From a virus: a stretch of DNA of 46,152 nt. The notes below the pieces were generated by a model. It did no database searches and was not told the origin of the DNA. It worked only from the letters and a program-made list of their open reading frames with translations. Where the stretch lies: positions 1-46,152 of IMG/VR virus record IMGVR_UViG_3300017714_000022, one strand, 5' to 3'. The position numbers were made by a program, and so were the translations under genes. Shown in pieces: positions 41,872 to 46,152 of this stretch (positions are counted from its first letter, which is position 1; every line of letters begins with the position of its first letter).

Positions 41872-42063
41872 ATGAGACTACAATTAGAAATTTTAGCAAA
41901 ATGGTTAAAAGACCATAAAGAAAGTTGGGATGAAAGAGATGGTGTCCTAGAATCAGCAATTAAACGTAGTAAAGAAGATACTATGTTTCAAATAGGTGAT
42001 TTACTAGATGAAATCCTACAAATGGATCCTGATCAAATTGATGACGAAAGACGAGACAAATGA
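41872..42063 (+). CDS. 63-residue acidic helical protein, unknown
   Basis: It begins MRLQLEILAKWLKDHKESWDERD and ends in an acidic tail (DPDQIDDERRDK). It overlaps the UV endonuclease start by four bases (ATGA), so the two are coupled, and it is the first gene of its unit. It may be a small regulator or simply an accessory; nothing more can be read. Confidence 0.65.
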   Translation: MRLQLEILAKWLKDHKESWDERDGVLESAIKRSKEDTMFQIGDLLDEILQMDPDQIDDERRDK

Positions 42064-42956
42064 ATTTAGGATACGCTTGCATTAATACGGATTTAAAAAG
42101 TAAAGGTATATTTACAAATAGAACAATGCGTAGAAAAACGTTTGATTCTAAAGGTTTAGATTATGTTTCTGACTTATCACTTCAAAATGTAAAAGATCTT
42201 AAAACACATATTCTTTGGAATAATGAATTTAAAATTAAATTATTTAGATTATCATCTCAAATATTCCCTTGGATGGAGGAATACAATTGGGAGGATCTAA
42301 AAGATTGGGAGGAAATTAAATCATTAATGTTAGAATGTGGTAACATAGCTACTGAATCAGGACAAAGACTTACTATGCATCCTGGCCCTTATCATTGTTT
42401 AGCTTCTCCAAATCCTAAAGTTGTTAAAAGAACAGTTATTGGACTTGATAAACATGCTGAACAATTTGATATGATGGGATTTACACCCAGTCATTATAAT
42501 AAAATTAATATTCATGTGGGTGGGGCTTATGGGGATAAAGAAGGAGCATTAGAAAGGTTTTGTAAGAATTTTGAATTATTGGGTGATAGTACTAAAAAAA
42601 GATTAGTAGTAGAAAATGATGATAGCCCAAACGAATATTCAGTGGCTGATTTATTTGATTTTGTTTACTTAAAAATCAAAACCCCAATTACATTTGATTA
42701 TTTCCACCACAAGTTTAATACTGGTGGTTTAACTGAAAAACAGGCATTAGAAACTGCTTCTATTACATGGCCTAAAGGTATAACTCAATGTTGTCACTAT
42801 TCAGAAAGTCGTAGAAAAGAAAAATTAGATGAGTCAATTCGTCCTCAAGCTCATTCTGATTTAATTTATGAAAAAATACAAACATATGGTCTTGAACCAG
42901 ATATTGTAATTGAGGCAAAATTAAAAGAACAATCAATTTTTAAAAGAGTAATATAA
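42060..42956 (+). CDS. uvdE: UV-damage endonuclease, UvdE/UvsE family
   Basis: At 298 residues, the TIM-barrel UvdE signatures are visible: NLGYACINTDLK at the start, RLSSQIFPW, LTMHPGPYHCLASPNP, NIHVGGAYGDKEGALERF, VVENDD and FDYFHHKF, with the His, Glu and Asp residues that hold the metals in this family. It nicks 5' of pyrimidine dimers and other lesions, starting repair without photolyase. This fits a phage living in sunlit surface water. The product should cooperate with the phage 5' nuclease and ligase. Confidence 0.9.
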   Translation: MNLGYACINTDLKSKGIFTNRTMRRKTFDSKGLDYVSDLSLQNVKDLKTHILWNNEFKIKLFRLSSQIFPWMEEYNWEDLKDWEEIKSLMLECGNIATESGQRLTMHPGPYHCLASPNPKVVKRTVIGLDKHAEQFDMMGFTPSHYNKINIHVGGAYGDKEGALERFCKNFELLGDSTKKRLVVENDDSPNEYSVADLFDFVYLKIKTPITFDYFHHKFNTGGLTEKQALETASITWPKGITQCCHYSESRRKEKLDESIRPQAHSDLIYEKIQTYGLEPDIVIEAKLKEQSIFKRVI

Positions 42957-43153: not shown

Positions 43154-43296
43154 TGGTAGAATTTTTAAGACACGCACTTGGGTTTTGTGGTGAACATTGG
43201 CACCCAAATATTTGGACTATTCTTTTAGGTGGGCTTGGTTTACAACAATCTTTTTTGTATATTAAATATAAAATAAAGGAATATGCCAAAAACTAG
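43153..43296 (+). CDS. 47-residue small membrane protein
   Basis: ATG at 43153 overlaps the upstream TAA; the TAG is at 43294-43296, 14 bases inside the next gene. The sequence MVEFLRHALGFCGEHWHPNIW contains a Cys and two closely spaced His (H16-W-H type pattern), then a hydrophobic stretch TILLGGLGLQQSFLYI. Its 3' half overlaps a promoter on the same strand. Similar 'LG-CGE-H-N' mini proteins occur in phages, but no role is known. Confidence 0.55.
   Translation: MVEFLRHALGFCGEHWHPNIWTILLGGLGLQQSFLYIKYKIKEYAKN
43234..43265 (+). promoter_or_regulatory. Host-like promoter for the deazaguanine cluster
   Basis: CTTG at 43234-43237 and TATATTAA at 43258-43265 are separated by 20 bp, inside the 3' part of the upstream mini gene. 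It lies 18 nt before the ATG at 43283. Confidence 0.65.
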
Positions 43297-44074
43297 TCAC
43301 GAATTACCTGTAAATATGCTTTCTAGAAGTTATGATATTAATGACTATGAGTATTGTTTACCTCATTTATTAGATGAAAATGAAATGTATAAAAATCATT
43401 TTTATAAAGCTAAAAAAGATGGTAGATATATCATAATGGATAATTCTCTTCATGAATTAGGTGTAGCATATGATTCTGATAGGTTAATGTATTGGATTAA
43501 TGAATTAAAACCTAATGAATTTATAGTACCTGATGTTTGGCAAGACCAAACAGCAACATTAGTTAATGCTAAAAAATGGATGTCTATAGAATTACCAGAA
43601 GGAGTAACTAAAGTAGCAGTTGTTCAAGCACAAAATTATCATGAAGCATTTCAATGTTATAATATATTAAAAATACAAGGTTATAAAAAAATAGCATTTA
43701 GTTATGGTGCAGATTGGTATGCTAAAGAATTTCCTCATCCTAATCCGTTAGTTGGTAAAATGATGGGTCGTATAATGACTATATCTAAGATGTATAAAAG
43801 TAATTTAATAGAAAAAAGTGATAGAGTACATTTATTAGGATGTGCTTTACCTCAAGAATTTGCTTATTATAATGATTTTCCTTTTATTGAATCAATTGAT
43901 ACTTCTAATCCTATTATACATGGTTTAGAAGGGGTTAAATATAGTTCTAATGGGTTATACACTAAATCATCAACTAAGATTGATAAATTAGGATTAATAC
44001 CCCTAAGCCAAGAAACATTATATAATATTAATCACAATTTAACACAATTTAAAAAATTTAAAGAATGTCAATAA
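43283..44074 (+). CDS. dpdA: DpdA-like DNA 7-deazaguanine transglycosylase (phage TGT relative)
   Basis: At 263 residues it looks like the short phage DpdA branch of the tRNA-guanine transglycosylase barrel: YIIMDNSLHELG (Asp53), EFIVPDVWQD (Asp84), KIAFSYGADW, RVHLLGCALPQEF and FIESIDTSNPIIHG (Asp206). The CxCxxC-type zinc site of bacterial TGT is absent. DpdA enzymes exchange guanine in DNA for preQ0 or a relative. The gene overlaps QueC by 10 bases and precedes a QueD-like gene, so the base precursor and its insertion are encoded together. A tRNA-acting enzyme is less likely given this context and the missing zinc site. Confidence 0.75.
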   Translation: MPKTSHELPVNMLSRSYDINDYEYCLPHLLDENEMYKNHFYKAKKDGRYIIMDNSLHELGVAYDSDRLMYWINELKPNEFIVPDVWQDQTATLVNAKKWMSIELPEGVTKVAVVQAQNYHEAFQCYNILKIQGYKKIAFSYGADWYAKEFPHPNPLVGKMMGRIMTISKMYKSNLIEKSDRVHLLGCALPQEFAYYNDFPFIESIDTSNPIIHGLEGVKYSSNGLYTKSSTKIDKLGLIPLSQETLYNINHNLTQFKKFKECQ

Positions 44075-44853
44075 ATAAAAAACAAGCAGTATTATCGTTA
44101 TCAGGTGGAATGGATTCAAGTACAGTACTATTACATTTGTTAGCAAAAGGTTATAAAGTAACAGCAGTTGGTTTTGATTATGGTCAAAAACATGATATTG
44201 AATTAGAAAGAGCAAAAGAATTAGTTAAATATTTAAATATAAATAATCAAACAGTAAGTTTTCAAATAATTAAATTAGATGGTTTAGTAGATTTATTAAA
44301 CTCAAATTTAGTTAAAGGTGGAAATGATGTCCCAGAAGGACATTATGAAGAAGATAACATGAAAGATACAGTTGTACCTAATAGAAATAAGATGTTTTCA
44401 TCTATTATTCAAGCTGTGGCATTATCAATCGCTCAAGAAAAAGGAGGAGAGGTTAGAATAGCAATGGGAATACATGCAGGAGATCATGCAATTTATCCTG
44501 ACTGTAGACAAGAATTTAGAGATGCAGATTATGAAGCATTTAAACAAGGTAATTGGGGAGCAGATAAAGTAAATTATTATACACCTTATTTAAATGGTGA
44601 CAAATTTGATATTTTAAAAGATGGTGAAGTATGTTGTAAAATATTAAAATTAGATTTTGATGAAGTTTACAAAAGAACAAATACATCATATAAACCAGAT
44701 GCTGAAGGTAGATCAGATTACAAGTCAGCTTCATCAGTAGAAAGAATTGAAGCATTTATTAAATTAGGAAGAAAAGATCCAGTTAATTACATTGATGGGT
44801 GGGAAGTAGCAAAAAAACACGTTGAACAATTATTAGCTGAACATTCAGCTTAA
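44065..44853 (+). CDS. queC: QueC-like 7-cyano-7-deazaguanine (preQ0) synthase
   Basis: At 262 residues it has the PP-loop SGGMDSST (13-20), GFDYGQKHDIEL, VPNRNKMFSS and AMGIHAGDHAIYPDCRQEF, the typical QueC core. QueC uses ATP and ammonia to turn 7-carboxy-7-deazaguanine into preQ0. The C-terminal zinc region is altered: where QueC normally has SCY and CGxCxxC, this protein reads TSYKPDAEGRSDYKSASSVER, with Ser, Tyr or Lys in place of every Cys. A CC pair at 190-191 lies elsewhere. The core looks active, but the metal site is lost or moved. The tRNA-Gln gene begins 6 bases after its stop codon. Confidence 0.88.
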   Translation: MSINKKQAVLSLSGGMDSSTVLLHLLAKGYKVTAVGFDYGQKHDIELERAKELVKYLNINNQTVSFQIIKLDGLVDLLNSNLVKGGNDVPEGHYEEDNMKDTVVPNRNKMFSSIIQAVALSIAQEKGGEVRIAMGIHAGDHAIYPDCRQEFRDADYEAFKQGNWGADKVNYYTPYLNGDKFDILKDGEVCCKILKLDFDEVYKRTNTSYKPDAEGRSDYKSASSVERIEAFIKLGRKDPVNYIDGWEVAKKHVEQLLAEHSA

Positions 44854-44859
44854 CATAAA

Positions 44860-44932
44860 TGTCCTGTGGTGTAACTGGCAACACGTCTGTTTTTGGTGCA
44901 GAAGAGTCTAGGTTCGATCCCTAGCGGGACAA
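44860..44932 (+). tRNA. tRNA-Gln (anticodon UUG)
   Basis: A full cloverleaf can be drawn: 7-bp acceptor TGTCCTG/CGGGACA, D stem GTGT/ACAC, anticodon stem TCTGT/GCAGA with loop TTTTGGT (anticodon TTG), a 5-nt variable region, T stem CTAGG/CCTAG with loop TTCGATC, and discriminator A. CCA is not encoded. It reads CAA, the dominant Gln codon of this AT-rich genome. Queuosine is placed only at GUN anticodons, so this tRNA is not a substrate of the neighbouring enzymes. Confidence 0.92.
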
Positions 44933-44947
44933 CTAAAAATAAAAAAA

Positions 44948-45107
44948 AATGTTTGAAATAAAAAATAAAGTAACAATTAATGAATTAGATAGTATAGTAA
45001 ATGTACTACAAAATATAGATGCAACTTTAAATGCTCTTGTATTGGTAAGTATTGTATTTGTAACATGGAAAATAATAAGATATATAGTATCTGATTTTAT
45101 AAAATAA
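44948..45107 (+). pseudogene. Small membrane-protein gene with apparent frameshift
   Basis: From ATG 44948 the frame reads MFEIKNKVTINELDSIV, then turns into an unlikely Cys-rich sequence. The other frame, from 45000 to TAA 45105-45107, reads NVLQNIDATLNALVLV and a clear membrane helix, but has no start and follows a stop. Removing one A from the AAAA at 44998-45001 would join them into a sensible 52-residue single-pass protein. So this is a broken gene, a read error, or a recoded gene. Confidence 0.5.
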
Positions 45108-45116
45108 ATAAATAAA

Positions 45117-45302
45117 ATGGAAAAAAAAGAAATGAAATCAAAAATAGATAAATTACCTGATCCAAAGCTTCATCAACAGATTAGTTTTGTAAAATCTGGC
45201 ATTAGAATAATAGGTTACGCAGCTATTCTTTTTAGTTTGGGTTGGGCAGTTACTTTTCTTATCTTAAGTGAAGTAATAGGTATAATAGAAGAACTAGTAT
45301 AA
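45117..45302 (+). CDS. Small single-pass membrane protein
   Basis: At 61 residues it has a charged N terminus (MEKKEMKSKIDKLPDPK) and a membrane helix IIGYAAILFSLGWAVTFLIL near residues 31-50, ending in an acidic short tail. It follows the frameshifted membrane gene by 9 bases, so the two may have been a pair. No function is recognised. Confidence 0.6.
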   Translation: MEKKEMKSKIDKLPDPKLHQQISFVKSGIRIIGYAAILFSLGWAVTFLILSEVIGIIEELV

Positions 45303-45318
45303 ATTAAAAACAAAAATT

Positions 45319-45579
45319 ATGAATAAAGGAATATTATTTTTTAATGCACCTTGGTGTCAACCATGTCAGGTATTAAAACCCGTAATAGAACAAATAGGTA
45401 GAGATGGTATTAATGTAAAAAGTATCAATACCGAGTATGATGCTTCAAATACAGAAAAATATCAAGTTAAAAGCATTCCACTTTTAGTATTAACTGATTT
45501 AAATGGGAACGAAATTAAAAGAACTCAAGCTGGGGGATGGACTAAAGAACAAGTATTGACTTGGTTTCATAATGGGTAA
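45319..45579 (+). CDS. Thioredoxin/glutaredoxin-like protein
   Basis: At 86 residues it has APWCQPCQVLKP with redox Cys13 and Cys16, the cis-Pro motif VKSIPLLVLTDLNG, and a final GGWTKEQVLTWF helix. It is shorter than host thioredoxin (about 105), which is common for phage versions. It probably reduces the C-terminal dithiol of the class II ribonucleotide reductase at 25961. It overlaps the QueD-like gene by 8 bases. Confidence 0.88.
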   Translation: MNKGILFFNAPWCQPCQVLKPVIEQIGRDGINVKSINTEYDASNTEKYQVKSIPLLVLTDLNGNEIKRTQAGGWTKEQVLTWFHNG

Positions 45580-46060
45580 ATTTCAATCAAGTAAAGTATT
45601 TGACGGGTTTAGCACAGTATTTCGTCAATGGAAAGCAGAAGATACACATTGTAGATTTTTACATGGTTATGGTATTTCATTTAAAATTTATTTTGAAGGT
45701 GAATTAGATCATAGAAATTGGGTTTGGGATTTTGGTGGTATGAAACGAGCTAAAACTCAAATTAATGGTAAATCACCCAAAGAATGGATGGATTATATGT
45801 TTGATCATACGGTAATAATTGCTGAAGATGATCCATTATTACATGAATTTAAAATGTTAGATAATCTTCCTAACTTAGGAAACAATAATAAAGGTGGTCT
45901 GCAATTAAGAATAATCCCAGCTACTGGTGCAGAGAAATTTGCTCAATATATTTATAGTAATATAAATGAATTTGTAAAAACTGAAACTAACAATAGAGTT
46001 AGGGTTACTAAAGTTAAATTCATGGAACATGGAAAAAATGCCGCTTATTATAGCGAGTAA
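45572..46060 (+). CDS. queD: QueD-like 6-carboxy-tetrahydropterin synthase
   Basis: At 162 residues it belongs to the PTPS/QueD fold: THCRFLHGYG (Cys27, His31), NWVWDFGGMKRA, FDHTVIIAEDDPLL and a closing VKFMEHGKNAAYY. QueD converts dihydroneopterin triphosphate to 6-carboxy-tetrahydropterin, the second step toward preQ0. The usual CxxxHGH has Tyr33 in place of the second His, and the early zinc His (FxAxH) reads as Phe-rich TVFRQW, so the metal site is unusual. Other phage QueD-like proteins share this look, so it may be a subfamily trait rather than loss of function. Confidence 0.8.
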   Translation: MGKFQSSKVFDGFSTVFRQWKAEDTHCRFLHGYGISFKIYFEGELDHRNWVWDFGGMKRAKTQINGKSPKEWMDYMFDHTVIIAEDDPLLHEFKMLDNLPNLGNNNKGGLQLRIIPATGAEKFAQYIYSNINEFVKTETNNRVRVTKVKFMEHGKNAAYYSE

Positions 46061-46071
46061 ATAAGTTATTA

Positions 46072-46152
46072 GTGAATGAAAAACCACTTAAAAAAATTAA
46101 CAATATGCACAAACAATTAAAAAGGATAGAGGACTATAATAAAACTCTTCCA
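46072..46152 (+). CDS. Start of next gene (QueE candidate), cut by window end
   Basis: An open frame runs to the last base, from GTG 46072 or, more likely, ATG 46105 (MHKQLKRIEDYNKTLP). Only 16-27 residues are visible, not enough for a motif. Because dpdA, queC and queD precede it, the missing pathway enzyme QueE (7-carboxy-7-deazaguanine synthase) is a sensible guess; the visible part would be the short region before the radical-SAM core. Confidence 0.4.
   Translation, partial: MNEKPLKKINNMHKQLKRIEDYNKTLP

Follow-up and report, generated by a model that had tools for sequence, protein, structure and literature searches.

The right end of the virus record IMGVR_UViG_3300017714_000022 of IMG/VR (G000) raises the question of whether its short run of genes makes a 7-deazaguanine base for the DNA of the phage itself, and does so through a QueC enzyme lacking the zinc site by which QueC is described. 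The window analysed is the entire record, 46,152 bp long, and no slice of a longer contig. An earlier note had read the interval 43283-46152 as a 7-deazaguanine DNA-modification cluster of a T4-like flavophage. The modification reading is supported by the tRNA-guanine transglycosylase (TGT)-type fold of its DpdA, by the kinship of this protein with phage DpdAs and by the presence of queE and folE beyond the window. T4-like flavophage is a reasonable description, given genes for a T4-type sheath and for UvsX-like, single-strand-binding and DnaB-type proteins, and a named relative that infects Flavobacterium; the host of the window phage itself is putative. We consider it highly probable that the phage encodes a pathway by which a modified base is made and inserted in its own DNA, as dPreQ0 or dADG (the DNA forms of 7-cyano- and 7-amido-7-deazaguanine, preQ0 and ADG), by way of an apparently zinc-independent QueC. 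Gene content, fold, synteny and the loss and retention of motifs are supported by computation.

The interval contains dpdA, queC, tRNA-Gln, two short open reading frames (ORFs), thioredoxin, queD and the start of queE. The DpdA-like gene overlapping queC (by 10 bp), the tRNA, thioredoxin and queD were all located by ORF, Pfam, ARAGORN and Rfam analysis where the earlier note had placed them. The features are:

43283-44074, + strand: dpdA-like gene for a DNA guanine transglycosylase of 263 aa, zinc motif absent (ORF; phrog_19058, E 3.4e-42)
43439-43441, + strand: proposed catalytic Asp53 of DpdA (MDNS), invariant in 43 sequences
43898-43900, + strand: proposed catalytic Asp206 of DpdA (SIDTSNP), invariant in 43 sequences
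44065-44853, + strand: queC, 262 aa, catalytic motifs present, four zinc cysteines gone (PF06508, E 1.8e-39)
44677-44691, + strand: TNTSY of queC, where Ser208 now occupies the position of the first zinc cysteine; the next Tyr is the equivalent of E. coli Tyr189 (alignment)
44713-44745, + strand: SDYKSASSVER in queC, standing where the zinc motif would have its CxxCxxC part (55/55 phage QueC)
44860-44933, + strand: tRNA-Gln (TTG) (ARAGORN; Rfam RF00005, 58.9 bits)
45319-45579, + strand: small thioredoxin, 86 aa, APWCQPC (PF00085, E 6.5e-10)
45572-46060, + strand: queD-like gene, CxxxHGY variant (HCRFLHGY, 45647-45670) (PTPS, PF01242, E 1.2e-13; phrog_2389, E 1.7e-39)
46105-46152, + strand: queE, initial 16 codons (48 bases), ATG at 46105, frame MHKQLKRIEDYNKTLP; the record stops within the gene
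L044 5695-6474: full-length queE, 260 aa
L044 7389-8084: folE, about 1.6 kb beyond the end of the window

The last two rows come from the contig IMGVR_UViG_3300017757_005223 (behind L002 and L044), which matches the window exactly over its final 600 bases and beyond them encodes queE, a phosphoribosyltransferase-like protein, folE and a MazG/hydrolase-like protein, in this order. As L044 carries both a full queE and folE, the preQ0 pathway is complete and phage-encoded, with FolE, QueD, QueE and QueC all found in the window and the overlapping contig. This settles what the earlier note had left to sequence beyond 46152: its probable queE, represented in the window by 16 codons, is a full gene, and the GTP cyclohydrolase, expected either past the window or from the host, is encoded past the window. 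The radical-SAM cysteines of QueE have the spacing Cx3Cx7C (CTHRCYFGEGGWC) and not CxxxCxxC; the same holds for QueE of the phages immuto and phiST.

Scanning DpdA against Pfam gave a match to DUF6610 below threshold only. The PHROG search matched phrog_19058 strongly (E 3.4e-42), and in tblastn the protein was 37% identical to DpdA of immuto, whose record itself labels the homologue DpdA, and to that of Campylobacter Firehammervirus phages such as CP220. A profile built from 43 relatives matched immuto (E 2.5e-75), CP220 (4e-59), MA9V-3 (8.8e-18) and phiST (4.5e-13), as well as all 11 of the large phage contigs with zinc-less QueC on which it was tried. The closest characterised relatives are thus phage DpdAs, not tRNA enzymes. 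The CP220/immuto family is probably DpdA3; Cui et al. 2023 reportedly defines DpdA3, with its subfamily boundaries, and DpdL, DpdM and DpdN.

Searches of PDB sequences by phmmer and hmmsearch returned just 7ui4, at E 1.6 and amid chance matches, so that a structure comparison was needed. An AlphaFold2 model based on the 43 sequences (predicted local distance difference test, pLDDT, 93.4; predicted template modelling score 0.90) superseded a first one based on 12 sequences (pLDDT 69). Foldseek detected 142 PDB matches at E<=0.001, with a best E of 8e-8; the 50 listed are all either TGTs or 7ui4, the solved DpdA, a DNA preQ0 insertase. The model supports a TGT-type fold, and the proposed link between DpdA and TGT rests on structure together with intermediate named relatives. 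D53 and D206, invariant in the 43 sequences, occur in the same order as the LDSGAF and CDSSSW motifs of phage 9g, to which they are assigned by motif order, hhalign having given no alignment. As the earlier note held, this is a short DpdA without the TGT zinc site: the CxCxxC of bacterial TGTs, part of the C-terminal site CxCxxC...H of tRNA-acting enzymes, is not present anywhere in its 263 aa.

These features bear on the possibility that the cluster raises queuosine in host tRNA during infection, leaving DNA unmodified. Related queC-queD-queE genes do occur in Cysteiniphilum and Facilibium along with TGT and QueF and with no match to the DpdA profile, whereas the phage DpdA, at 263 aa, lacks the zinc domain of tRNA-TGT and is kin to phage DpdAs, and QueF is missing (above cut-off) from relatives of the window type. 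The tRNA-Gln of the cluster does not have a GUN (queuosine) anticodon, nor is it conserved: the closest relatives (L002, L003, L006, L007) have it between queC and thioredoxin, but a scan of 15 other related loci did not detect it. We regard a queuosine role as quite unlikely.

For the DNA-modification reading, the distribution of the genes was evaluated next to their sequence. The DpdA family is common, relatives being encoded in 481 IMG/VR contigs, 80 of which were compared for synteny. Two orders recur, DpdA-QueC-(Trx)-QueD-QueE-FolE and QueD-DpdA-QueC-QueE-FolE, and gene order is strongly conserved across these contigs, far beyond chance. In many related phages a thioredoxin gene lies immediately before queD, often overlapping it. 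Directly upstream of the cluster, at 42060-42956 of the window, a UvdE-type UV endonuclease gene (PF03851, E 1.1e-54) is located, which is kept only in the closest relatives.

QueC is described by the motif SGGxDS and the four-cysteine motif C(x)8CxxCxxC (Cys4), and Tyr35, Arg99, Tyr131 and Tyr189 are essential in the E. coli enzyme (PMC13329287). Cys4 occurs in none of the 55 distinct phage QueC, the window protein included, and in none of 79 further viral relatives. It is replaced in 55/55 phage QueC by T-x-T-S-Y ... SD(Y/F)(K/R)S(A/G)(S/A)S(V/I)ER, while SGGxDS, YxQxHxxE, VPxRN, YPDC and the Tyr189 equivalent are kept in 54-55 of the 55 (YPDC in 54). QueC or Gat-QueC of phages phiSM, CP220, 9g and MiCath retain Cys4, as do 27 of 27 canonical QueC sampled for control from the class to which Cysteiniphilum belongs. 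Judged from these alignments, the QueC of the cluster is apparently zinc-independent, and the zinc-less subfamily most likely still makes ADG/preQ0. Both this loss and the variant motif of QueD had been overlooked in the earlier note.

QueC-family proteins of CBASS and Qat systems join CDG (7-carboxy-7-deazaguanine) to a protein N-terminus (PMC13279940, PMC11996544, PMC13329287), and the zinc-less QueC could be a ligase of this Cap9/QatC-like kind, unrelated to a DNA base. Such an activity is hardly credible here: Cap9 and QatC have the zinc cysteines (PMC13329287), and the window QueC has canonical preQ0-synthase motifs and folE, queD and queE as neighbours.

Further evidence on the function of zinc-less QueC comes from cellular genomes. 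Its alignment was scanned against 84,980 of them, revealing 438 relatives; the best 80 were taken, of which 79 yielded checkable QueC ORFs, all devoid of Cys4 (0/79). They belong to marine group II/III euryarchaea, Pirellulaceae and Fastidiosibacteraceae (Cysteiniphilum, Facilibium), in addition to phage contigs binned into metagenome-assembled genomes (MAGs). In ten cellular genomes of unstated completeness, from marine euryarchaea, Fastidiosibacteraceae and Pirellulaceae, the zinc-less protein is the sole strong, full-length QueC, and all ten have TGT and PTPS; QueF was found in 7/7 bacterial genomes tested among the carriers, and the order folE-queE-queC-queD in 6/6 archaeal loci whose neighbours were checked. 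These findings argue strongly, if indirectly, that the protein works as a QueC without the zinc site, although salvage of preQ0 or queuine may take the place of its activity in those genomes. Contigs resembling this phage group also turn up in MAGs that bear the labels Pelagibacter, uncultured bacterium or Woesearchaeota (L134, L135, L136, L141), probably by binning contamination; the QueC of L134 is identical to that of the viral L009.

In Cysteiniphilum, Facilibium and a Thiotrichales genome (L142, L145, L140), phage-type zinc-less queC is divergent from a CxxxHGY queD and queE, while TGT and QueF are encoded elsewhere and the DpdA profile has no match; capture from a phage is possible. A tree of QueC nests the Fastidiosibacteraceae sequences among those of phages, and the earlier branching of two phage lineages has starred support. 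A phage-only clade stays compatible by the approximately unbiased test (p-AU 0.20), and a phage-to-bacterium transfer of queC is not established by the nesting. Fastidiosibacteraceae queE groups with phage queE (100/100) and their QueD carries CxxxHGY too; on these grounds a common origin of the phage and Fastidiosibacteraceae queC/queD/queE module is well supported. The balance tips slightly towards a zinc-independent QueC class in phages, marine euryarchaea, planctomycetes and Fastidiosibacteraceae, with catalytic residues kept and a Ser/Asp segment in place of the zinc cysteines; with CxxxHGY QueD it would form a phage-type preQ0 module, perhaps captured from phages by Fastidiosibacteraceae for queuosine.

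In the proposed pathway, FolE, QueD and QueE would convert GTP to CDG, which QueC would amidate to ADG and then dehydrate to preQ0. The short DpdA would then remove guanine from DNA and insert preQ0 (or ADG) in its place, probably with an Asp as nucleophile, and the resulting dPreQ0 or dADG would obstruct host nucleases that recognise guanine. We infer in this way DNA, not tRNA, as the target, along with the product, the zinc independence of QueC and the anti-restriction role.

As to the product, QueF was not above cut-off in G001, G002, G003 (84-100 kb), G008, G009, G059, G062, G063, G065 and G066, which gives no indication of preQ1 as the end product. Relatives of the window type in which QueF stays under the cut-off, in records that may be incomplete, include several contigs as long as 158-173 kb, whereas QueF is present in immuto and in two further contigs. 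The minimal set FolE, QueD, QueE, QueC and DpdA is reported to yield dPreQ0 (PMC6884629), while 100% of the deoxyguanosine of CP220, whose DpdA is related, is reported to be replaced by dADG (PMC8306585); between the two products we favour dPreQ0, but only slightly. The zinc-less QueC of the same cluster might halt at the amide, giving dADG and not dPreQ0. The complete dADG of CP220 and the lack of QueF above cut-off in the ten contigs, which gives no sign of a preQ1 product, speak for such a halt, but CP220 QueC has Cys4, so that dADG and zinc loss do not go together and zinc loss was rejected as the cause of dADG. Moreover, zinc-less QueC co-occurs with QueF in immuto and Fastidiosibacteraceae, where preQ0 is required. 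We hold the halt at the amide to be possible but doubtful.

Several observations weigh against the proposed pathway. Zinc is described as needed for QueC function (PMC13329287), and the window QueC scores 132.6 bits, under the NCBIfam equivalog cut-off of 150.3 (TIGR00364). The window QueD has CxxxHGY, as 57/59 phage QueD have HGY, and not the CxxxHGH of canonical QueD (PTPS-I; PMC5041015); its score is 27.7 bits against an equivalog cut-off of 89.25. No alignment was obtained by hhalign between the DpdA profile and either bacterial TGT or 9g and MiCath DpdA. The base of the window phage is a prediction, and among the Firehammervirus phages the modification has been measured only in CP220 (PMC8306585). 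Finally, tetranucleotide palindrome counts showed no clear restriction signal, and palindrome avoidance was dropped as an uninformative sign of DNA protection.

The QueD of the clade reads FRQW...(S/T)HCxxLHGY; in alignments it is apparently without two of the three usual zinc histidines but has the Cys, DH pair and C-terminal Glu. Unlike zinc-less QueC, HGY QueD is also found in other deazaguanine phages (phiST, phiSM, MiCath). In phiST, where QueC was not found, CGPG_00067 (L020 10482-10829) is a small protein with an HRH motif resembling a QueD paralogue, perhaps the CDG decarboxylase DpdL.

The cluster itself is of a known kind, immuto being already annotated with such genes, and replacement by 7-deazaguanines is a known way for phages to evade host defences. 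The zinc-less QueC lineage is not described in the available part of a 2026 survey of PF06508, which leaves three small archaeal clusters unanalysed; Cui et al. 2023 is outside this comparison. A large, mostly uncultured phage group joins those expected to replace guanine in DNA, and the zinc motif by which QueC is defined is missing from a lineage that is widespread and has kept its active site intact, in some genomes as the sole QueC. Should these enzymes prove active, nitrile formation by QueC would not generally require zinc, as has been assumed that it does, and annotation based on the zinc motif would overlook such proteins.

Among named systems, the Flavobacterium phage immuto (NC_055915) shares zinc-less QueC and CxxxHGY QueD with the window phage, at identities of 69% for QueD, 59% for QueC, 73% for QueE, 63% for FolE and 37% for DpdA. 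It differs in having QueF and a formyltransferase adjoining DpdA, with queC about 15 kb off, whereas window-type relatives keep DpdA and QueC together and have no QueF above cut-off. The formyltransferase-domain gene, gp204 (L018 15040-15567), lies directly downstream of dpdA and near queF; it is possibly the dPreQ1 formyltransferase DpdN. A formyltransferase of G002 was rejected as its counterpart, since it does not match gp204 and sits among sugar-nucleotide genes. CP220 encodes a DpdA of the same family as the window, with QueD and QueC, but its QueC has Cys4, its QueD has HxH (HSH) and its genes are scattered. The dG+ pathway of Enterobacteria phage 9g likewise includes FolE, QueD, QueE and a DNA-modifying DpdA (PMC6884629), but uses a Gat-QueC with Cys4 and a canonical HGH QueD, and its DpdA has no hhalign link to that of the window. 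From canonical QueC, as in E. coli and B. subtilis (cluster 1 of PMC13329287), the window protein differs in lacking C(x)8CxxCxxC and in scoring under the TIGR00364 cut-off, while the two have in common the fold family and all catalytic motifs.

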